Below, one piece after another: positions 12,719 through 38,105 of a DNA stretch of 64,000 nucleotides. Positions within the stretch are counted from its first letter, which is position 1. The number at the start of each line of letters is the position of its first letter. A model generated the notes under the pieces. That model did not search any database. It was not told the DNA's origin and was given only the letters and a program-made list of their open reading frames with translations. Made by a program: the position numbers and the translations under genes. The DNA comes from Cardiobacteriaceae bacterium TAE3-ERU3. GTDB lineage: Bacteria; Pseudomonadota; Gammaproteobacteria; Cardiobacteriales; Cardiobacteriaceae. The stretch covers positions 479,722 through 543,721 of the forward strand of contig JAHUUI010000001.1 in the NCBI GenBank assembly GCA_019218315.1, written 5' to 3'.

Positions 12719-15700
12719 TTACCAGGAGTAACGCAGGCCAATCTGACCACTACCACCACGACGGCTCTTGCCACCAAGTGTGTGGTAATACTGAGCACTT
12801 CCATAGAGAGTAGTATTGTCACTTAATGATACCTGCCCACCAACTCCAGCTTCTAACCAGGTGTCTTTTCCGATTTCTTCGCGAATATCTGTACCACCAA
12901 TTGTTACGGTAGCGGGAGAAAGTAACTCATGCACAACACTGGCTGTCATATACAAGTCTTTACCACTCGCTTTATCTATCAAACCAGCACGTACACCCAA
13001 TCGTGGTCGTAAACTATTACTGCCATATCCATCTATAGAAGATATTTCATCATTAAACGCACCGTACTTAGTCACTTGTGCAGTAAGTTGGGCTTGTGGC
13101 TCAACAAAGTAACCATCACCAAGGTCCTTATGCCAGCCTGCTTCAGCAGAAGCAGCAATACCCCAACCTTTATTTTTGGACTTGCCGCTATAAATATCTT
13201 TATATTGGTTATCCAGATAGTGCACACCACCAATCAAGTCAATATAGCTGCCCTGCTCATCAAAATGAGTGTAATACGCACCAGCAGACAAGATATTTGT
13301 ATCCACATTGCCAGTGAGAATAGGGGTATCAACCTCGGCCCGTTTGCGATCGAAGAAATCTGCATCACTATTGGCATAGCCCAAGTAAATACCAGTATGA
13401 CTGCGATTATTTTGATCGTCACGATTTATACCAAGATCCCAGCCAAATTGGATAAGCTGTGTATCTTGATCAAGATTAAACTGTTTTTTGCCTTCAAGTG
13501 AAAGTGATTCTGCGCGAATACGTCCCCATGCCTGATAATTATGCTCATCTAGCTTATTGATCTGCTGCTCCCCCATACGCTGATGCAAGTGATTACCAAG
13601 CATGCTGGATGTGGCCGCAATATTGGCATACTGTGCCATAACATATCCCGGAACAGCAGGGCGATAAACTTCCGGTACATACGGCTTAGGATCAGGCTTC
13701 AGGTTTGGTTTATGGTCAGGTTTAGGAGTTGGCTTAGGATCAGGCTTCTTGATATCAACAGGCGCACTTGTATCACTCCCTTTTCCACCACTGCTCTTAC
13801 GTCGACTTTGCAGATAAAACCCTTCACCTTTGAGGTGTGCAAGCGTGTTGTACTCATAACTTCCTGCTTGAACAGAGCCATCTAATATAAACGCATCATC
13901 AGATATATTATTACCGCTTGTTGCATTAGCAGTTGAAACCAACTCAATCCCTTTATTAGTCAGATCACCGACACCACCCTTATTAGCAACTTTTACCTTA
14001 GTGATGCCATCAACGTTGCCTTTAAGAACCAGTTTATCTGTCGGGCTAGAATAATCACCAAGTCTAGTGTTAAACAAAACTGTACCACCACCATGATAGT
14101 CGCCATCAATAGTCAGTTCGGTAAATTCATCTTTGCCATCACGACGCAAATTGAGCACGCCATCAGCCTGATCATTGTGCAAATCGCCATTGATGGTAAA
14201 TGATGATTTATCATCAGCATCAATGCTTAGTGTTGCGCCACTACCAATAAATAGACCACCAGCATTACTAGCAACACCTCCTTTGCCTACCTCAAGTTCT
14301 CTTCCTGAGAGGTTGAAGTCACTGTTAAGATTGATACGTTCCCAGTTCTTCAGATTATCACCAGAGAAGGTTGGTGCTGCACTGTAATCGGCAAAGGTAA
14401 GAATATCGAATTCATCATTAACATCAGTATTAATGCCACCGTTAATTTTGCCAATATTGCTTAAATCTGTATCTTTAAATGTTAGATTATCATTGCCGTC
14501 ATTGAGGTCAAACATAGTTTCTTGTACCGAAGAAGCTATTTTTGCTCGACCAATGATGGTATCTGAATGCCCTCCATCATTATATACAGCGGTCTTTGCG
14601 GTAATCTTTGCACCATCATTAATAAGAACTCTAGACATGCCTGTATCGTTTCGATTGGCATCCACTTGAGTAAGAGTATTAATAGCACGGTCATGGGCAC
14701 TAAGTGTACCTGCTATCTCAACGTTCACATCACCATGAGTCGATATAGCTGTAAGTGCATGGCTGTTACTCCCCTCCGCAACAACGCTACCTCCTGTCTG
14801 AATAATACTTGCCATTCCACCAGCTTCTGCAAATAGACCATTACTATAATCATCAGGATTTGGATTGCTACTGATGACCTTTACTGAACCAGCAGCCATA
14901 TTGATACTTGCTTTACCATTCTCACCAAGATGGCTAGCATAGGCACCACTATTTTTATTTCCTATTATAGTAATCGAGAGTGCTGATGCAGTTGCTTCTG
15001 GCTCATTTAAGTTGATAATAGCAGTGCCTTTTGCAGTCGGTTTTACATTTCCAATATTACCCGTTTCATCTCCAAATGCAGCTGCTATGCCATATGATTG
15101 ATCAGCGTTTATAGAAATTGACCCACCAGACATATTAGTTATTGCTTGTTGGTTCACATTCGTCTGAGTACCAGTAAGAAGAGCCAAAGCACCTGATGAT
15201 TTAATTGATTCAATAGAAGAATTATCACGCTCAATAGTTATATTACCTTCTTTGATATTAATGGAAGCATCTCCAACACCATTGTTCATGGCAAACAATG
15301 GGATAGACGTATTAGCATTGTGCAATAATATCTTTCCACCACTCATTAATACCCTAGCATTCCCTTCTTTTCCTGCTCCTCTTAGCAGACTAAATGCGCC
15401 AGAAGTACTACTAACATCACTAAAGGTAACCGTACCATTGCGTATCTCAATACTAGTGTCTCCGCTACCTCGTTGTTGATCTGCAAATAGACCTACTGCT
15501 TCCTTTGAAGGTCCTGTGATCGTAACATTTGGGCTATCAAATATAATTTTGGCATTACCATCTAGATTTATAGAGGCATAAATAGGTGCAACAAAACTGC
15601 CAGATTGGCTGCCTCCTTCAATAGTTGCCGTATCATCAGTGATGATATTGATAATAGATTCGCTATTAGGGCGGCTATTTCGAACCTCCGCCCAAACTGT

Positions 15701-16120
15701 ACCATATCCATTTTTGGTTGTTTTTATGCGCTTAAACCGATTAAGATTCAAAGTCAGACTTCTATCTTGAATATCATTGGAAGATAAGTCGGGATGCAAG
15801 ATAAAACCAGATGTATCAATATCAATGCTGCTATCATCAAGATTAAAAACAACAGAAGGGGCACCTAGCGTCTTGCTAAAACCGCTCGAAGCACTTGCGG
15901 ATGATATACAGGAATAAGTCTCAACACCATTGGTTGAAGTCGGTGTACACTCTATACCCGCATGAGCAGAGGGAGACAATACCGCCGCTATTGCAGCCAA
16001 GGACACTACACTAAATACTTTGATACTGGAACTACGTGTACTGTGGCTTTTACTTAGCTCACTCACTGCAACCCAAGAACCAAGAGCTTCATTCCATACA
16101 GTTTTATAAATGTGATTCAT
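12719..16120 (-). CDS. Type Va autotransporter with extended signal peptide
   Basis: A 1133-residue outer-membrane autotransporter. The start at 16120 (after GGGGAAATTA) gives MNHIYKTVWNEALGSWVAVS, the classic extended signal peptide region, then a hydrophobic core and cleavage near SAHAGIE. The Gly/Asn/Ser-rich passenger (~60-780) has many short strands ending in asparagines and fits a parallel beta-helix. A Pro/Lys linker (KPDPKPTPKPDHKPNLKPDP) precedes VMAQYANIAATSSMLGNHLH, as in pertactin-type proteins. The last ~270 residues form the barrel and end GQIGLRYSW with the expected terminal aromatic. Likely an adhesin or biofilm factor; no serine protease motif was seen. It is flanked by AT-rich gaps and looks monocistronic. 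Confidence 0.92.
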   Translation of the reverse strand: MNHIYKTVWNEALGSWVAVSELSKSHSTRSSSIKVFSVVSLAAIAAVLSPSAHAGIECTPTSTNGVETYSCISSASASSGFSKTLGAPSVVFNLDDSSIDIDTSGFILHPDLSSNDIQDRSLTLNLNRFKRIKTTKNGYGTVWAEVRNSRPNSESIINIITDDTATIEGGSQSGSFVAPIYASINLDGNAKIIFDSPNVTITGPSKEAVGLFADQQRGSGDTSIEIRNGTVTFSDVSSTSGAFSLLRGAGKEGNARVLMSGGKILLHNANTSIPLFAMNNGVGDASINIKEGNITIERDNSSIESIKSSGALALLTGTQTNVNQQAITNMSGGSISINADQSYGIAAAFGDETGNIGNVKPTAKGTAIINLNEPEATASALSITIIGNKNSGAYASHLGENGKASINMAAGSVKVISSNPNPDDYSNGLFAEAGGMASIIQTGGSVVAEGSNSHALTAISTHGDVNVEIAGTLSAHDRAINTLTQVDANRNDTGMSRVLINDGAKITAKTAVYNDGGHSDTIIGRAKIASSVQETMFDLNDGNDNLTFKDTDLSNIGKINGGINTDVNDEFDILTFADYSAAPTFSGDNLKNWERINLNSDFNLSGRELEVGKGGVASNAGGLFIGSGATLSIDADDKSSFTINGDLHNDQADGVLNLRRDGKDEFTELTIDGDYHGGGTVLFNTRLGDYSSPTDKLVLKGNVDGITKVKVANKGGVGDLTNKGIELVSTANATSGNNISDDAFILDGSVQAGSYEYNTLAHLKGEGFYLQSRRKSSGGKGSDTSAPVDIKKPDPKPTPKPDHKPNLKPDPKPYVPEVYRPAVPGYVMAQYANIAATSSMLGNHLHQRMGEQQINKLDEHNYQAWGRIRAESLSLEGKKQFNLDQDTQLIQFGWDLGINRDDQNNRSHTGIYLGYANSDADFFDRKRAEVDTPILTGNVDTNILSAGAYYTHFDEQGSYIDLIGGVHYLDNQYKDIYSGKSKNKGWGIAASAEAGWHKDLGDGYFVEPQAQLTAQVTKYGAFNDEISSIDGYGSNSLRPRLGVRAGLIDKASGKDLYMTASVVHELLSPATVTIGGTDIREEIGKDTWLEAGVGGQVSLSDNTTLYGSAQYYHTLGGKSRRGGSGQIGLRYSW

Positions 16121-16458
16121 TAATTTCCCCAAAAGTTATCTAATGGAAGAAATTTTATTAAAAAAACTTAACATCCGCAAGACTGCCATATAATATTTTT
16201 ATAAAAATCAATATTTTATTTTAAATACTTAGGCCTTTATTGATTTTAGACCTTAACCCAAACCTCATAGCTCATTGATTTTTATAATGATTAAAAAGCA
16301 TTCAGTTGAGGAGGTAATTATATATTGTATTTCTTTATTACTAATTCATATGAAAATATAAGCCATTTACAATGAGCAACATTACTCAATTATCTCATAT
16401 TGCAATATCCACCTACTATCTGTGATAGTAGAATGTTATTTTTTGAAGGTAAAGTGAA
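16121..16458. other. AT-rich intergenic region
   Basis: Divergent spacer between the autotransporter and dipeptidase genes. It is strongly AT-rich and must hold both promoters; I see no gene, and no clear operator. Confidence 0.5.
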
Positions 16459-21911: not shown

Positions 21912-23654
21912 ATGGCTGTTCTTGAAGAATTTGATATGAAAGCAATATGCAGTACATTGACTAAACTAGAAGATACAGACTCATTCTGCGCTATGGCTCT
22001 TTTGTTTACATGTGAAGCACGAAAAAGTGAGAAAAATGGGGAAATTTCACGAACAGAAGCTTATCGGGTTTTATCTAGGGCGTGTGGATATGAAGTTCGG
22101 CCAACATCTGAATCTGAATTTTCACAATGGGATTACTGTAAAAAAATTGAATTAACAACCGAGGATATTCATTATCTTGAACAACTTATTCCTGTGGTTG
22201 CAACATATTCGTTAAAAGGACGATTAGCTGATTTATTATGGTTGAGCAAAAAACCTAGGAATAAAGAAGATGCTTTAACTGCTATCGAAGCATATACATC
22301 CATAGAAATCAGTGATGAGACATGGTGCCAATACGCCGAGCAATGTTACCACCGGGCTATCACCCTTGCTAAAAGTTTTAAAGGATTAAGTGATGATCAT
22401 TTAGAAACAATCCAAAATAATTTACTTATAGAGTTACAGAATGCCACAAGTGAACAGCGTTTTTATGGATATTTTTTAGCCAAGATATTATTGATTTATA
22501 AACTTGCCCAACCTAATACCGAGTGTGTGGCTGGATATTTAATTGAGCTTGGAGAAAAATTTATAAAAGAAAATGATTGGACTATAGCCGAAGATTATTT
22601 TAGGTTGGCAGCAAAATGGTATGAAAAAGATGGTCAGAAAGAAAGATGTTTTGAACTAATTACTCGTGCCGCAGATGTTTTTGTAGAGCATGGAACAAAA
22701 AGATTATCTAGTGGAGATAAACTGGCTGCTCTTATAATTTATAATCAGTCTATTGAAAAATACCGTCTAATACCTAAAGAGTTCCGTAAGCAACTGCATG
22801 TAGAAAGTAAAATTGATAGCGTTGAAAAATTGAGGAAAAACCTTCAAAATAATTTATCTATGGCAGACTTCAGTTTAATGGAAGTTGGTGACAATATTCC
22901 TAATCAATATCAAAAATATATAGAATCCATAAAAAATTTTAGTCAAGAGGAAGCTTGGGAGTTTATTATTAACCATCCAATTCCAGAAAAAGATAAGATC
23001 TACCAACAGGCTGCTAATAAACAATATAATAATCTTATCTGTCATATTGCTACTAATATGACTCTTAGTGATGATAAGAGAATAATTGGCATGTCCAACA
23101 CCTCTGATATGGGTGATCTAATACATAAAGCAAGTATTGAGTATTTTTCTTTATGGAGTGATATTTTTGTAAGTTCAGAATTGTTACCTGCGTTATCAAT
23201 ACTAAATTCAAAACCATTTCTAACAGAATCAGATTTTATTGATATGGCCAAACAATCAAAATATTTTCCATCTGATCGTGCAAATTTAGTTGGCAAAGGA
23301 ATTTATGCCGGTTATCAAGTTGATTTTGTTACAGCAATACACTTTTTAATACCTCAGATTGAACACATGGTTCGTATAAAATTACAAGAAATAGGCGTAA
23401 CAACAAGCAATACAGACTCACTTGGCTTAGAGCAAGAAAATGGATTAAGCACTTTGATGAAAAATCCTGAAGTTGAGGAGATCTTTGGTAAAGATGAAAC
23501 ATTTTATATTCAGGCTTTATTTTGTGATGGATATGGCCCAAATCTACGCAATAACCTTGCACATGGCTTACTAGATGAAAACTCATGCCAGTCCGCAAGT
23601 GCCAAACTTGCTTGGCTATTTGCTTTGCGTTGGGCAAATACATCAGAATCTTAA
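21912..23654 (+). CDS. DUF4209-type protein with C-terminal HEPN-like motif
   Basis: A 580-residue protein. The N-terminal ~330 residues are helical with TPR-like segments (AEDYFRLAAKWYEKDG). The C-terminal part (~470-560) has the DUF4209 hallmarks: an FLIPQIEHMVR helix, a Leu-rich stretch, IFGKDE, and FCDGYGPNLRNNLAHGLLD. RNNLAH (546-551) fits R-x4-H of HEPN domains, many of which are RNases in defence or toxin systems. The DNA is clearly more AT-rich than its neighbours, which suggests acquisition. A role in defence or stress is inference. Confidence 0.65.
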   Translation: MAVLEEFDMKAICSTLTKLEDTDSFCAMALLFTCEARKSEKNGEISRTEAYRVLSRACGYEVRPTSESEFSQWDYCKKIELTTEDIHYLEQLIPVVATYSLKGRLADLLWLSKKPRNKEDALTAIEAYTSIEISDETWCQYAEQCYHRAITLAKSFKGLSDDHLETIQNNLLIELQNATSEQRFYGYFLAKILLIYKLAQPNTECVAGYLIELGEKFIKENDWTIAEDYFRLAAKWYEKDGQKERCFELITRAADVFVEHGTKRLSSGDKLAALIIYNQSIEKYRLIPKEFRKQLHVESKIDSVEKLRKNLQNNLSMADFSLMEVGDNIPNQYQKYIESIKNFSQEEAWEFIINHPIPEKDKIYQQAANKQYNNLICHIATNMTLSDDKRIIGMSNTSDMGDLIHKASIEYFSLWSDIFVSSELLPALSILNSKPFLTESDFIDMAKQSKYFPSDRANLVGKGIYAGYQVDFVTAIHFLIPQIEHMVRIKLQEIGVTTSNTDSLGLEQENGLSTLMKNPEVEEIFGKDETFYIQALFCDGYGPNLRNNLAHGLLDENSCQSASAKLAWLFALRWANTSES

Positions 23655-24650: not shown

Positions 24651-26591
24651 ATGCATTATTCTTTGGCGCTTAGCAGCGAGTTACCGGACAAATCGTTACT
24701 CGATGAGTTTAAAAATATCGCGCTGGTACGTGGTGAATACATTTGTCGCAAGCATGGTGTGTACGTGACTACCGCTACATGGCGCTTGCACGCCAAAGCC
24801 TATTTATCGACTTTGCTCGACAGGGCAGATGGCAAGGCCGTGTGGTATCGCTTTACAGAATTGGAAACCTTTGAAGCCAACGTATTGGCAGGGTGCGACA
24901 AGGAAATCGACAGTGAAGCCAATCCGGTGATTGGTTTGCGCGGGGTTCGTCGTGCGCGGGCATTACCGGCTGCGTTTCAGCAAGAAATTGAGCTGATTGT
25001 CGCACTTCGCGAAAAGTATCCCAATCTGCATGTAATTATTCCGTTCGTCACCAATCCTGATGATATCCACTTTGTGCGTGACGCGTTACTCACTGCGGGC
25101 TATGACGGTAAAATTGCCGCAATGATTGAAACGCCAGCGGCACTGTTTCAGGTCGAGGCATGTATCGCGGCCGGTTTGTCACGTGTGGTTGTTGGCCTGA
25201 ATGATTTGTGTAGCACTTTACTCGCGAGTAACCGTTCCGGTCACAAAGATGATTACCTGCATCCAGTCGTTATTACGGCGCTAGAGCAAATTTGTCATGC
25301 CGCCGAACAGGCGAATATTGAAGTGGCGGTTGCCGGTTATTTGCCCGATGGGCTCATCACAAAGTTGCAAGCATTGGCGGTTGACGACGTGATTCTGCAT
25401 TATGCCCTGTTGCCTAAATACAACGTGGCGTACGAGGGTAGGGTAGATAGTGATCTGCTACTCAATATCAAGCGGCAAACACGGCGCCAGATTGCTGGGC
25501 GTTTGCAGCGAGTCGCGCCGTATGCACGAAGCAGGATGCAAGGATGGGCGATACCGATGGATGATGCCACACCGGCTATTGCCTTACTGCATCAAATCGC
25601 GAGTGGTTTTTCGGTGTATGGACGCAATCCATTGTCAAAACAGGAAAAAGCAGCATTAGAGTGGACAAAGTGGCAAGCGCAAATGGCATTTATCAGGCAA
25701 AGCATGATTTGTCATGGCGAAGCAATCAGTAGTCAGGAATGCCTCGACTATGAACAGCATCGTCAGCAAATAGAGCGTGAATTTGCCGCTCGTTTTGCGG
25801 CACAGGATGCGCTGTTGTTCCATTCAGCTGCAGAGGCAATGTCAGCAACCTGTACTGCGTTGAGCAGCCAAGGCAAAAAGATAGTGATCGTTAAGGATGG
25901 TTTGCATACGACATGGGCAAACAACATTGCAGCAGATTACTGCGATAAAGCTGAATTGCTTGCCGCACTCGAACGCGATCAGCCGCACGTCGTGCTATTG
26001 CAAGATAAAGTGGAAAATATCAGCGAGCTGTGTGCGGCATTTCCCGCTACGTTGTTTATCGTGAATGGCGACGTACTACATGAAAATGTCATCGGTATAA
26101 GCGGGTTTGAAGGGTTCTTGCCTGAACAACAGGCCGGGGTGATTTATGGCAATGCAATACTACTGCAATCAATCAGGGATCATGCACGGGAAAGCGGGCA
26201 ATTGATCAGTGACGCAGTATTGCCGTATTTCAGCGAACCACTCATCCGTACCGCCAAGCTGCAAGAAGAGATACAGGAAGGCAATGCTGCTGCTTTGCAT
26301 GACGCCTTACAGCAGCATTTACCCAAAGTATTTCATGTTACACGCAACGGCACAATATTGACCATTTCCCATCAGAATAATGATGCGCAGGCTTTGCATG
26401 CTCTACAACTGACATGGCAATCAGCTTATCAACAAAGCAGCAGAGATTGCTCGTCGACAACCCATTATCCGTATACGTATTTATCTATTGAAAAGAACGA
26501 CAACCCTGATCCAATGCTATCCCTGCATATTTTAGTTGGGCTTGAGCCAAAAAATATTTTACTTGATTTAAGTAAATCCATATCAGAGTGA
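24651..26591 (+). CDS. PEP-utilising-type TIM barrel fused to a degenerate PLP-fold domain
   Basis: A 646-residue two-part protein. Residues ~1-290 resemble the C-terminal barrel of PEP synthase/PPDK enzymes: VWYRFTELETFEANVL, NPVIGLRGVRRAR (Arg97, Arg100), PFVTNPDDIHFV, MIETPAALF (Glu160) and VVGLNDL (Asn184, Asp185). The catalytic G-x-C-G loop is replaced by VAGYLPDG (~227-234). Residues ~330-600 resemble fold-type I alpha-oxoamine synthases (AAQDALLFHSAAEAMSA; NGDVLHENVIGISGFEGF; AGVIYGNAILLQSIRDHA), but no lysine stands at the PLP position. The fusion may be a binding or regulatory protein; the function is unknown. The start follows CAAGGTACAACC and lies just after parS site 4. Confidence 0.6.
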   Translation: MHYSLALSSELPDKSLLDEFKNIALVRGEYICRKHGVYVTTATWRLHAKAYLSTLLDRADGKAVWYRFTELETFEANVLAGCDKEIDSEANPVIGLRGVRRARALPAAFQQEIELIVALREKYPNLHVIIPFVTNPDDIHFVRDALLTAGYDGKIAAMIETPAALFQVEACIAAGLSRVVVGLNDLCSTLLASNRSGHKDDYLHPVVITALEQICHAAEQANIEVAVAGYLPDGLITKLQALAVDDVILHYALLPKYNVAYEGRVDSDLLLNIKRQTRRQIAGRLQRVAPYARSRMQGWAIPMDDATPAIALLHQIASGFSVYGRNPLSKQEKAALEWTKWQAQMAFIRQSMICHGEAISSQECLDYEQHRQQIEREFAARFAAQDALLFHSAAEAMSATCTALSSQGKKIVIVKDGLHTTWANNIAADYCDKAELLAALERDQPHVVLLQDKVENISELCAAFPATLFIVNGDVLHENVIGISGFEGFLPEQQAGVIYGNAILLQSIRDHARESGQLISDAVLPYFSEPLIRTAKLQEEIQEGNAAALHDALQQHLPKVFHVTRNGTILTISHQNNDAQALHALQLTWQSAYQQSSRDCSSTTHYPYTYLSIEKNDNPDPMLSLHILVGLEPKNILLDLSKSISE

Positions 26592-27413: not shown

Positions 27414-28220
27414 CTAAATGCGTCCCCATTCTGACCAAGAACCGTCATAGAGGCTAACTTTATTGATGCCTGCTTCAAGTGCAGCAAGTAAAACGATGCA
27501 GGCGGTTACGCCAGAGCCGCAATAAAAATACACATTGTCATTTGTATTAATAGCTTGTGCTGTAAAGAGTTCGTGTAATTCAGATTTTGTTTTGTAATGA
27601 CCATGCTCCAATACGCTGATAAAAGGAATGTTTATAGCCGTAGGAATATGCCCACTTTGTAGCCCTTGCCTTGGTTCAGGAATAATACCGAGAAAACGTT
27701 CATGGCTTCTGGCATCGACAATTTTGCTGCCTATCTGCTGTGATGATGCAGACAGATCACTTTTCTTGCAAACCAGCTCTGGCTGGTAAGTGGCTGTCCA
27801 GCTGGAAAGAGCTTTTGCAGATGAGGCTTGTGTTGATAATGGATATTTCTTAGCCAGCCATTCAGGCAATCCACCATCCAGAACAAACACACGTTTATGG
27901 CCAAATAGTTTACATAGAAACTACGCACGAGGTGATGAGTAAATGCCTTTGCTATCATAGATGACAATAGTTGAGTTCTGTTTGATGCCGAGCTTTCGCA
28001 TACCGGCTGTAAATTGCGCTGTATTTGGTATGGTATGTGGCAAGTCAGAATCTGAATCAGAAAAGTCGTGTTCAATATCAAAGATCTGAGCTTTGGGAAT
28101 GTAATACTCTGTCGCGCTATTATCGCCTTGAATACTGTCCATACTTGCGTCAAGCACAATCAGGTTGGGGTTATCCAGGTTTGCGACGAGCCAGTCACTG
28201 TTGACAAGATTACTGCTCAT
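27414..28220 (-). pseudogene. sseA: 3-mercaptopyruvate/thiosulfate sulfurtransferase with in-frame amber stop
   Basis: Two-domain rhodanese that would move sulfane sulfur from 3-mercaptopyruvate or thiosulfate to an acceptor. The N-terminal domain (MSSNLVNSDWLVANLDNPNL ... IVIYDSKGIYSSPRA) stops at TAG 27923-27921. The same frame then continues FLCKLFGHKRVFVLDGGLPE and on to the catalytic domain with CGSGVTAC. Homologues have Trp at the stop position (PRAWW..F), so one TGG-to-TAG change explains it. Both halves are otherwise intact, which implies recent loss, readthrough or a sequencing error. AAAGGAATCCCTC precedes the ATG. Confidence 0.85.
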
Positions 28221-28238
28221 GAGGGATTCCTTTATCAA

Positions 28239-34891: not shown

Positions 34892-37800
34892 TTAATTTCC
34901 GCTGCGAATAACGCTGCTGATTGAAGCAGCGTTGCCAACAGCCGAAGCCATAGCACTGTTGCCGTACAAAGTAGCACTAGCTACACCATTTGATCCTGAT
35001 GCATCACGGATAATTTGGCTGCTGTCGTTGCGGGCAATAACATCGCCTGCATTAACTTGAGTATTAGTGATCTTTGTATTGATGCTATTGCCATCAACGC
35101 CGGCATTGACAACCATATTATTCACTACATTGTTACCAGCAGCGTAGACGTTACTGCGGTTATTAAGGATACGGCTATCAGAACCATTCAATCCTGTATT
35201 GGTACTGTTAATACTGGTTGCAGCATTGAGCGTTGCGCTAATTGCAGCATCATTCTCTTGATTATTATCAATAATGAATAAGTTATTGTTCCCAGTATTA
35301 AGCGCTGTGCCACTACGTACTGCCAAAATATTCTCACCATAGTTACCGCTGGCTTTACTGTTCAGAACATTATTGGCAACGGTGAATGAATTTGAACCTG
35401 CTGCATTCTGTGAATTGACTGAAATACCATACTTGCCGATTTCCAGTGTTGACGAGACGCTGCCAATCCCGGTTGATTGCTGGTTGGTGATGCCTGAATT
35501 AGACTGTGCATTTAACACTGTGCCTGAGCTTAACTCGCTACGGTTAATAGCATAGTTCGCACGAGCATCAGAGCTCACTGCATTACCTTCCAGCGTCAGA
35601 GTATTGTTACCAGTAACTCCGTCGGTAATATCGGCTAATAGTTCGCCAATACGAACATTGGCTTTAGCTTCAAATCCATCAGATGTGCTCTGGCTATTGA
35701 ACAAACTCACTGGTGCAGAAACCGCCAGGTTAGTTGCGCCAGAGACTGCTTGTTTATTCATCGCCAGATTGTTAATAGCCAAGCTACTCACATTGTTCTT
35801 GAGAATATTTTGAGTCACACCATTACCACGCTGCATAATGACACCAATTCGCTCGATATCATTATTGGCGCTAACTTTGCTGTTGTGCCCCTCTTGGGTG
35901 CTACTCAATAGGGCTTCGGTAGCAATTTCAGCCTGACCAGCATTGGCTACTAGTGACATATCATTGTTAGCTCTATTGCCTTTAGCATCAGCGAACAGCT
36001 CGTTATTATTAACATTCTGCTCATCTTGTGCTCTCAGTACCGCAATACCGATACGGTCTGAAACAAGGTTGCTGGCATTGGTCTGGCGATTCATGCCAAC
36101 TGTCTGTTTATTCGTCAAAGTAGCCCGGTTTCCTGATAATTCAGTACCTTTAGCAGAGAGTACGTTAGATGATTGGTTTTGAAGCGCATTACTACTGACG
36201 GTATTGTATTGAACAGTATTTTTATGAGAGTCATTTGTTAATTTACTCTCATTAAAGACCATAATGCCCTTGATCGTATTCGTCGCTGATGTAAGGCTGT
36301 TAGCGTTACTCTGCTCGCTCATCTGATCATTGCTAATGCTAAGTGTATTATTGCGAAGCGCACCTGCTGAAGAGGCGGTCACTGCATTTGCACTATCGTT
36401 ACCCAGACTATTAGCGCTGACAAGGTTTTTGGTTACTACATTATTAGAGCCAATATTTTGGGGAGCTACGATCCCAACATATTTAACAGTATTACTGCTG
36501 GTTGTAACACCTTCTGCAGCTATAAGCTGATCATTTTCACTTCTGATATTACTACCAGCAATACTTCCAGCAAGGCTTGTTACAATAGTGCGGTTGTTTG
36601 CACTGTTGGTTTTGGCCAATGCTTCCAGGCTATTGTTGCCAATAACGTTACCATCATTGTTAACTTGACCTGCTTTGATGCCCAGTAATCCAACTGTATT
36701 TTGAGCTTCACTCTTGTCGCCACGGTATTCCTGAACATTCTTATGAGTTGCTTCAAGTTGCTCAATACTATTTGCTGTGCTGGCAAGCTCGTTGCCTGCA
36801 CTATTGTGCATGACCCGCGCTGAAATTTGGTTACCTGAAACAGTACCAGCAGCACCGCCAAGATTATCAGCTTGAATACCGAGAACATTCGCAATTGTGT
36901 TATGAGCATCGGTATCGACTGAGTCACTCTTCTGCTTATTTTCCAGGCCAATTTTGCCAGCAGTCAGGCTGGTGGTGGCATTTAATGTCGTGGCATTGCT
37001 TGCTAGGTTATTACTGGCCGCTGACTCAAATACGTTGCCATTGATATTTAGCGTCCGAACGCTAGTGATGTTGTTAGCTGAAATACCCAGATTATCTACA
37101 TGTGAGCTAGCTTTGGTAGCATGATTGCTGCTCTCTTGTTGGCTTAGTAAAGCCAAGTTTGATCCTGCAGCACTGGTGCCAGCTTTGACAAAAAGGCTGT
37201 TACTGGCTGTGTTGTCAGTCGCATTGATTCTGACCTTGTTGTTATTGATATTTAGCTCAGCGCCTGTGCTGTTCGCAAGCTCGGCACCAAGTGTGGTGAT
37301 CCTGCTATCAGACGTATTCTCAGCCTTGCTATTTTGATTATTGCTCAGTTTCGCCTCAGCATTTTTCTGTTCTGAAACAGTGTTCACTTTTGTATCATTT
37401 ACAGCACTATTGGCATACGTTGTTGCACTATGCTTGTTATCCGAAACATTGGCAACGAGTGCGTCAATTGCATTACTAGACTTGATGCCAGTCATATCTG
37501 ATTTGGATTGCGCACGAATAGCCGCTGTATTATCGGTAGTTTGATGATTGCTAATTTTCGAAGCCGGAGTGCCTGTTTGAGCATTAATACTCAGAGCATG
37601 AACAATCGAAGCATTATCAGCGCTATTGCCTGTTGAAATAGCTTCGCGCTGGTTATCATTGACATCGGCTGTAACAGAGTTATGCTCAACTTTAGTGACC
37701 GTTAAGCCCTGACTAAAAGCAGTAGTATTACCTAAGCTTCTCTGTATGTTTGTAATTGCGCTATTATTTTCTAAGGCGATAGCCGGAGTATTTACTTCGG

Positions 37801-38056
37801 ATGTTGCGTTAATCTCGTTCGCCCGCGCATTTGCGCTGGCAGTATTCTTATACTGTGTCAGTTTTGCATTAAATTGACTATTTTCGTTTTTAAAACTACT
37901 CAGCTGATTAGCTTCTTCAAGCTTGGAGCTGATTTGATCATTTCTGATCTCGGAACCGATTTTAGTTTCGGCTGAAGCATGGCTGATGCTCAGTGCAGCA
38001 ATTGCACCAACTATCAGACGGACGCAAACTTTTTGCTTTGTGTTAAGCTGTTTCAT
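34892..38056 (-). CDS. Large repetitive surface protein, HfaD-like adhesin
   Basis: A 1054-residue secreted protein. The start at 38056 (after AAGGAGAATCCTC) gives a signal peptide, MKQLNTKQKVCVRLIVGAIA, with cleavage near SHASAETK. The rest is very rich in Asn, Ser, Ala and Thr, lacks Cys, and carries about 14 imperfect repeats of ~60-75 residues around a core like NN.V.A.A.GN.A.N (for example NELFADAKGNRANND, VLNSKASGNYGENI), often preceded by a short IGI/LGI strand. No beta-barrel, YadA anchor or LPXTG is present, so export probably uses the CsgG/HfaB-like pore encoded just upstream. The order small protein-HfaB-large protein matches hfaABD of Caulobacter, where HfaD helps anchor the holdfast. 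Confidence 0.7.
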   Translation of the reverse strand: MKQLNTKQKVCVRLIVGAIAALSISHASAETKIGSEIRNDQISSKLEEANQLSSFKNENSQFNAKLTQYKNTASANARANEINATSEVNTPAIALENNSAITNIQRSLGNTTAFSQGLTVTKVEHNSVTADVNDNQREAISTGNSADNASIVHALSINAQTGTPASKISNHQTTDNTAAIRAQSKSDMTGIKSSNAIDALVANVSDNKHSATTYANSAVNDTKVNTVSEQKNAEAKLSNNQNSKAENTSDSRITTLGAELANSTGAELNINNNKVRINATDNTASNSLFVKAGTSAAGSNLALLSQQESSNHATKASSHVDNLGISANNITSVRTLNINGNVFESAASNNLASNATTLNATTSLTAGKIGLENKQKSDSVDTDAHNTIANVLGIQADNLGGAAGTVSGNQISARVMHNSAGNELASTANSIEQLEATHKNVQEYRGDKSEAQNTVGLLGIKAGQVNNDGNVIGNNSLEALAKTNSANNRTIVTSLAGSIAGSNIRSENDQLIAAEGVTTSSNTVKYVGIVAPQNIGSNNVVTKNLVSANSLGNDSANAVTASSAGALRNNTLSISNDQMSEQSNANSLTSATNTIKGIMVFNESKLTNDSHKNTVQYNTVSSNALQNQSSNVLSAKGTELSGNRATLTNKQTVGMNRQTNASNLVSDRIGIAVLRAQDEQNVNNNELFADAKGNRANNDMSLVANAGQAEIATEALLSSTQEGHNSKVSANNDIERIGVIMQRGNGVTQNILKNNVSSLAINNLAMNKQAVSGATNLAVSAPVSLFNSQSTSDGFEAKANVRIGELLADITDGVTGNNTLTLEGNAVSSDARANYAINRSELSSGTVLNAQSNSGITNQQSTGIGSVSSTLEIGKYGISVNSQNAAGSNSFTVANNVLNSKASGNYGENILAVRSGTALNTGNNNLFIIDNNQENDAAISATLNAATSINSTNTGLNGSDSRILNNRSNVYAAGNNVVNNMVVNAGVDGNSINTKITNTQVNAGDVIARNDSSQIIRDASGSNGVASATLYGNSAMASAVGNAASISSVIRSGN

Positions 38057-38105
38057 GAGGATTCTCCTTACTGGGTTCATTAAGTCATCCGTATGGATGG
38101 GGTAT

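Follow-up and report, generated by a model that had tools for sequence, protein, structure and literature searches.

In textbook accounts, phosphoenolpyruvate (PEP)-utilising barrels move phosphate by a mechanism that needs two parts, a cysteine and a mobile histidine domain. The role of the cysteine as the proton donor to the enolate, and the roles of the ligand residues, are established knowledge from enzyme I of the PTS and from pyruvate phosphate dikinase (PPDK). The protein described here is encoded in a 64-kb stretch of DNA (the window), and its N-terminal barrel resembles the PEP-binding domain of PEP synthase (8a8e, 9dae and 2ols) in its fold (Z 25-28 over ~250 residues) and in the positions of the PEP and metal ligands. 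However, the window protein lacks the ATP-grasp and phospho-histidine domains of PEP synthase, has an alanine in place of the cysteine and carries an extra fused C-terminal half. The likeness to enzyme I and PPDK extends to the barrel superfamily and the ligand set, but the phospho-histidine swivelling domain, the cysteine and the PTS context are all missing. A Pantoea protein of 308 residues, WP_161973544.1, has the same Ala-Gly-Tyr (AGY) signature as the window protein; it differs in having no C-terminal PLP-like half and in belonging to a biosynthetic-looking cluster. The C-terminal half is closer to the alpha-oxoamine synthases (BioF and kin) than to control proteins and possibly shares the order of elements in their small domain. 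However, it has no lysine in residues 454-535, the lysine region is apparently shortened, and its match to the BioF model, 15.7 bits, falls far below the family cut-off of 426.

The gene was delimited by its open reading frame, translation and codon usage:

24651-26591, + strand: whole gene, PEP-type barrel with a C-terminal half resembling a PLP fold (646 aa)

The reading frame is uninterrupted over 646 codons, with an AAGG motif 5' of the ATG start. Codon usage of the whole gene (GC3 0.48, CAI-like value 0.69) falls within or near the values of the neighbouring genes; on the CAI-like scale the N-terminal half scored 0.72 and the C-terminal half 0.67, with 0.67-0.78 for the reference genes of the window. 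The gene stands alone, preceded by genes for TPR and DUF4209/DUF7380 proteins and followed by a rhodanese-like ORF on the opposite strand, and no Rfam RNA was found in the 64-kb window or in the gene leader. The host genome is 2.4 Mb in size and, judging by its relatives, probably belongs to a gammaproteobacterium of the Cardiobacteriales. It also carries ordinary PEP-synthase-sized and enzyme I-sized genes, so the barrel fusion is not their replacement. In the sister species the gene is absent, and the neighbourhood at the syntenic site is not conserved.

The initial annotation had described the first half of the protein as a PEP-utilising barrel and had suggested a profile search against PF02896 and a structure prediction with fold search as checks. 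Both bore the description out. PF02896 was matched over residues 20-231 with 70.5 bits against a cut-off of 22.8 (E 1.8e-19), and the domain is a member of this family. The best NCBIfam match of the barrel, NF005057 (E 5.8e-19), reached 67.6 bits, below the equivalog cut-off of 598. The full-length AlphaFold run, with an input alignment of eight family sequences, gave a well-formed barrel over residues 1-260 (pLDDT mostly 70-95) that was poor at about residues 71-100. The closest structural matches to this barrel in the PDB were the PEP-binding domains of PEP synthase (9dae_A, Z 28.2; 2ols, Z 26.5), followed by PPDK and enzyme I (both Z about 25). No phospho-histidine or ATP-binding domain was detected in the protein with Pfam, and the chain begins at the barrel:

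24651-25490, + strand: PEP-utilising (beta/alpha)8 barrel of the stand-alone type, without an N-terminal phospho-histidine domain, residues 1-280 (PF02896, AlphaFold, relatives P0002, L060, L062 and L064)

The ligand positions were compared in one alignment of 59 sequences, comprising 7 members of the family to which the barrel belongs and 52 conventional relatives:

24729-24731, + strand: R27 (VRGEY), position of a PEP-ligand Arg; Arg in 7/7 of the family and in the 14/14 conventional relatives aligned that far
24843-24854, + strand: W65-Y66-R67-F68, invariant in the family; R67 is the position of a PEP-ligand Arg, WY..F is family-specific
24933-24953, + strand: GLRGVRR, residues 95-101; R97, position of a PEP-ligand Arg, in 59/59; R101, family-specific, in 7/7 of the family versus 1/52 others
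25128-25130, + strand: E160 (MIETPAA), position of a metal-ligand Glu; Glu in 59/59
25200-25205, + strand: N184-D185 (GLNDL), positions of the ligand Asn and metal-ligand Asp; invariant, 59/59
25233-25235, + strand: R195, a further Arg of the phosphate pocket; invariant, 59/59
25332-25340, + strand: A228-G229-Y230, replacing the catalytic C-G-E; Ala in 7/7 of the family versus Cys in 52/52, Tyr in 7/7 versus Glu in 46/52

The initial annotation had described substrate-binding Arg, Glu and Asn-Asp as retained; R27, R67, R97, E160, N184, D185 and R195 are all present, and the catalytic cysteine that it had reported missing is replaced by Ala228. The conventional relatives aligned across the WYRF motif all have Arg at R67, and most have Ile/Leu in place of Trp/Tyr. 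Besides W65, Y66, R101 and Y230, the residues that mark the family in this alignment are E75 and N77. The annotation had also called the barrel apparently catalytically altered; the cysteine is indeed gone, but the change proved to be a fixed signature of a family and not the decay of one protein. Because the Cys-to-Ala replacement is fixed in a barrel family that occurs in bacteria and archaea, a change of chemistry is more plausible than a loss of activity. The cysteine and the histidine domain were both tested for and both were absent; consequently, the protein is not a PEP synthase, an enzyme I or a dikinase.

The best stand-alone relative found on plasmids, Pantoea agglomerans WP_161973544.1, is annotated as a 'putative PEP-binding protein' and is 31% identical to the window protein across residues 1-280 (E 2e-39). 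A DNA pattern, WYRF ... GLRGxRR, was built from features common to these two proteins and scanned against 84,980 genomes. It was found in 16 contigs, 7 of which held true barrel relatives by tblastn: four Roseomonas MAGs, Lactococcus raffinolactis, one Woesearchaeon and a second Pantoea. Complete stand-alone genes encoding ~285-310 residues occur in four unrelated lineages (Pantoea, Roseomonas, Lactococcus and Woesearchaeota), which argues that the barrel works alone. The barrel gene of one Roseomonas MAG (L063) has a stop inside the usual start region. In whole-genome searches, family members scored E 1e-102 to 1e-138 while conventional PEP enzymes reached only about 1e-21 to 1e-23, a clean gap. 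No further clear members were found among 369 gammaproteobacterial genomes, and within the Pantoea family the barrel occurred in 1 of 392 genomes. In the maximum-likelihood tree, the Cys-less barrels were set apart from the conventional enzymes by a branch supported at 99/99; the internal branches of the family are long, and relations within the family are unsure. The alignment and the tree indicate that loss of the cysteine defines a small, rare family of stand-alone barrels in bacteria and archaea. No description of such a family was found in the literature, judged by title and abstract.

The neighbours of the family barrels vary from lineage to lineage. In the Woesearchaeon (L064:4366-7437), a threonine-dehydrogenase-like gene, the Cys-less barrel and an intact PLP enzyme of the class I/II aminotransferase family run in one direction and overlap end to end; the closest model of the PLP enzyme is GntC (E 1e-75, below its cut-off). 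The cluster shared by the two Pantoea strains consists of a ~70-aa ORF, a PP-loop ATPase, a thymidylate-kinase-like protein, the barrel, an FAD/NAD(P) protein, a phosphodiesterase-like protein, a CobD-like PLP enzyme, an M28 peptidase, a luciferase-like enzyme, an amidase and a transporter. The short ORF upstream of the barrel (L031:9614-9823 and L179:5294-5557) ends in 16 residues, YGIETICGASCETGAQ, that are identical between the strains, while much of the remainder is variable. The locus has the appearance of a cluster for a ribosomal peptide or related product, apparently one not described before. In Lactococcus, ABC exporter genes lie upstream of the barrel and a Cof-type HAD phosphatase directly downstream, and no PLP gene is nearby. 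The sole neighbour noted in Roseomonas, a convergent sugar-aminotransferase-like gene, may be unrelated to the barrel. That two lineages have PLP enzymes close to the barrel, and that the window protein has a PLP-like domain fused to it, is suggestive of a functional association, although the lineages are few.

The remainder of the window protein comprises the following features:

25491-25604, + strand: predicted helix and linker joining the two halves, residues 281-318 (pLDDT mostly under 45)
25605-26588, + strand: C-terminal half, residues 319-646, weakly like fold-type I PLP enzymes and most like alpha-oxoamine synthases (NCBIfam, shuffle z-scores)
25767-25949, + strand: stretch matched by PLP-family models, residues 373-433 (Ala/Glu racemase, cystathionine gamma-synthase, BioF; NCBIfam E 0.0012-0.0046)
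26010-26255, + strand: lysine-free region, residues 454-535, expected site of the Schiff-base lysine after an Asp strand (FIVNGD, 469-474) (lysine census)
26277-26585, + strand: predicted helix-strand-strand-helix-strand-strand-helix, residues 543-645 (full-length AlphaFold, pLDDT roughly 57-76, lower at 599-621)

Eight weak NCBIfam matches were obtained for the C-terminal half (E 0.0012-0.14). Seven were to PLP families, six of these over one and the same stretch of ~50-75 residues (within ~360-435), and the top matches were to L-Ala/Glu racemase (E 0.0012), cystathionine gamma-synthase (0.0041) and BioF (0.0046). A reversed copy and four shuffled copies of the same half gave no match at E 1. 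In local alignments, the mean shuffle z-score was 1.7 for 14 alpha-oxoamine synthases, 0.7 for cystathionine-type enzymes and 0.2 for the remaining aminotransferases, compared with -0.2 for 14 control proteins, the test proteins being related and the scores hence not independent; the alpha-oxoamine synthase of the same genome gave 3.1. An alpha-oxoamine synthase profile scored 5.2 bits, a value exceeded by 2 of 300 shuffles and only suggestive. AlphaFold modelling of the isolated half gave a mean pLDDT of 41, and the Foldseek matches (E > 0.03), which were de novo designs and H-NOX, are meaningless at such a pLDDT. The helix-strand-strand-helix-strand-strand-helix order recurred in this model at lower confidence; it corresponds to what we take, from BioF, to be the order expected for the last ~100 residues of a fold-type I small domain.

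The C-terminal half thus appears probable, by sequence comparison, to be a fold-type I PLP fold that has lost its lysine. The initial annotation had likened it to an alpha-oxoamine synthase: the weak NCBIfam matches and the shuffle z-scores agree with that assignment, but the Pfam search that it had also suggested for this half matched no family and the AlphaFold model of the half was unusable. Provided that the weak alignment holds, the Schiff-base lysine should lie ~30 residues past the pyridine-binding Asp strand, within the lysine-free region, and the lysine would indeed be absent, as the annotation had stated. Visual inspection suggests that the strand and loop expected to bear it have been deleted and the region shortened. 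No homologue of the C-terminal half was found in 32 genomes of the order, in 398 genomes of the phylum or in the plasmids searched. A match in L034 to a flavodoxin-like ORF was due to chance, another in L074 was an unrelated locus, and the PLP enzyme of the Pantoea cluster was ruled out as a homologue, showing no BLAST homology. Searches of the plasmid, phage, viral and GTDB collections, at the sensitivity applied, and of genome samples from the order, class and phylum found no full-length relatives. As far as these collections and samples reach, the window protein appears to be the sole fusion of the barrel with this C-terminal half, in keeping with the initial annotation, whose author knew of no described protein of such architecture.

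Since the barrel keeps the PEP and Mg2+ ligands while the histidine acceptor and the proton donor are missing, the economical reading is that the enolate or the phosphate is used in some other way. We tentatively favour, with somewhat less than even confidence, a Mg-dependent enzyme of the small stand-alone-type barrel family that would use PEP-derived enolate or phosphoryl groups unconventionally and carry a non-catalytic C-terminal half. The barrel would bind PEP, or pyruvate plus phosphate, together with Mg2+ at the ligand positions of PEP synthase and enzyme I, and a metal-bound pyruvate enolate would be formed from PEP. Either a small molecule would then accept the phosphoryl group, or the enolate, left unprotonated, would attack an electrophile, for example an aldehyde, to give a 2-oxo acid that a PLP enzyme could convert; the two outcomes seem about equally compatible with the residues. 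The second route fits the dehydrogenase, barrel and PLP enzyme gene set of the Woesearchaeon, and PEP carboxylase provides a precedent for the capture of an enolate from PEP (PMC8100219). The C-terminal half would not itself be a PLP catalyst. Lacking the lysine, a PLP fold would form no internal aldimine and could act as a structural, binding or heterodimerisation module, perhaps one for dimerisation or product handling derived from an alpha-oxoamine-synthase-like partner. Points against this overall reading are that Tyr230 could take over the role of the cysteine as acid, that the gene neighbours vary between lineages and that the Lactococcus barrel has no PLP gene close by.

One branch of this explanation, a PEP-dependent phosphotransferase that phosphorylates a metabolite-sized acceptor or a distinct carrier protein without enolate capture, is unlikely when taken by itself. 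In this case the enolpyruvate would be released and tautomerise in water without the help of a cysteine, and the arginines of the phosphate pocket are all kept. Phosphatase, kinase-like and phosphodiesterase genes lie beside the relatives, but the neighbouring phosphatases may be unrelated. A non-catalytic sensor of PEP, pyruvate or oxaloacetate, in which the barrel binds the ligand and the PLP-like half signals to a partner, would also account for retained ligand residues combined with the loss of the cysteine and of the expected lysine, and no biosynthetic neighbours were seen among the window genes scanned. This distinctly unlikely reading is opposed by the lack of any DNA-binding, kinase or other output domain in the protein by Pfam, and by the loss of the cysteine in stand-alone barrels that have no fused half. 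Moreover, an enzyme is favoured over a pure sensor because the relatives of the barrel sit with enzymes (PLP enzymes, a dehydrogenase and a phosphatase).

That the gene is decaying, a functionless fused remnant, is improbable. None of the relatives sampled, the sister species among them, has the gene, and its C-terminal half has no homologue in the collections searched and lacks the expected lysine; however, the frame is open throughout, codon usage is host-like in both halves and every barrel ligand is kept. It is more improbable still that the barrel is a pyruvate aldolase of the HpcH/HpaI type that merely resembles a PEP enzyme. HpcH/HpaI aldolases also lack the cysteine, they appear further down the fold list, and PF03328 was matched at residues 128-224 (E 4.7e-5), but with 23.2 bits this match is below the cut-off of 25, in contrast to the score for PF02896. 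The fold is likewise nearer to the PEP enzymes than to citrate lyases, malyl-CoA lyases and pyruvate kinase (Z near 20), and the phosphate-binding arginines are kept.

Returning to the unconventional PEP enzyme, a more specific form of it is possible, though rather doubtful: a new class of PEP-dependent enzyme in specialised metabolism, working with PLP partners, in which the enolate is captured on a carbon electrophile or the phosphate passes to a metabolite. In the window protein, the barrel would then be joined for good to a domain that descends from such a PLP partner but has lost its lysine. A family that spans bacteria and archaea, keeps every PEP ligand and has fixedly lost both catalytic parts would imply unexplored PEP chemistry, and the operon partners in Woesearchaeota and Pantoea hint at the products.

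Several other features of the window were observed. The DUF7380/DUF4209 protein gene (21912-23654, + strand) has a GC content of 0.34 and a GC3 of 0.22, versus ~0.5 around it, with a CAI-like value of 0.61, and is probably a recent acquisition. The rhodanese-type, mercaptopyruvate-sulfurtransferase-like gene (27414-28238, - strand) is split between 27921-28238 and 27414-27890 in different frames and is apparently broken by a frameshift. A 1062-aa ORF (34892-38080, - strand) that matches no Pfam family at E 1e-5 adjoins a CsgG-like gene, and an autotransporter of the type V secretion pathway, with an autochaperone domain and an extended signal peptide, is encoded at 12719-16132 (- strand).
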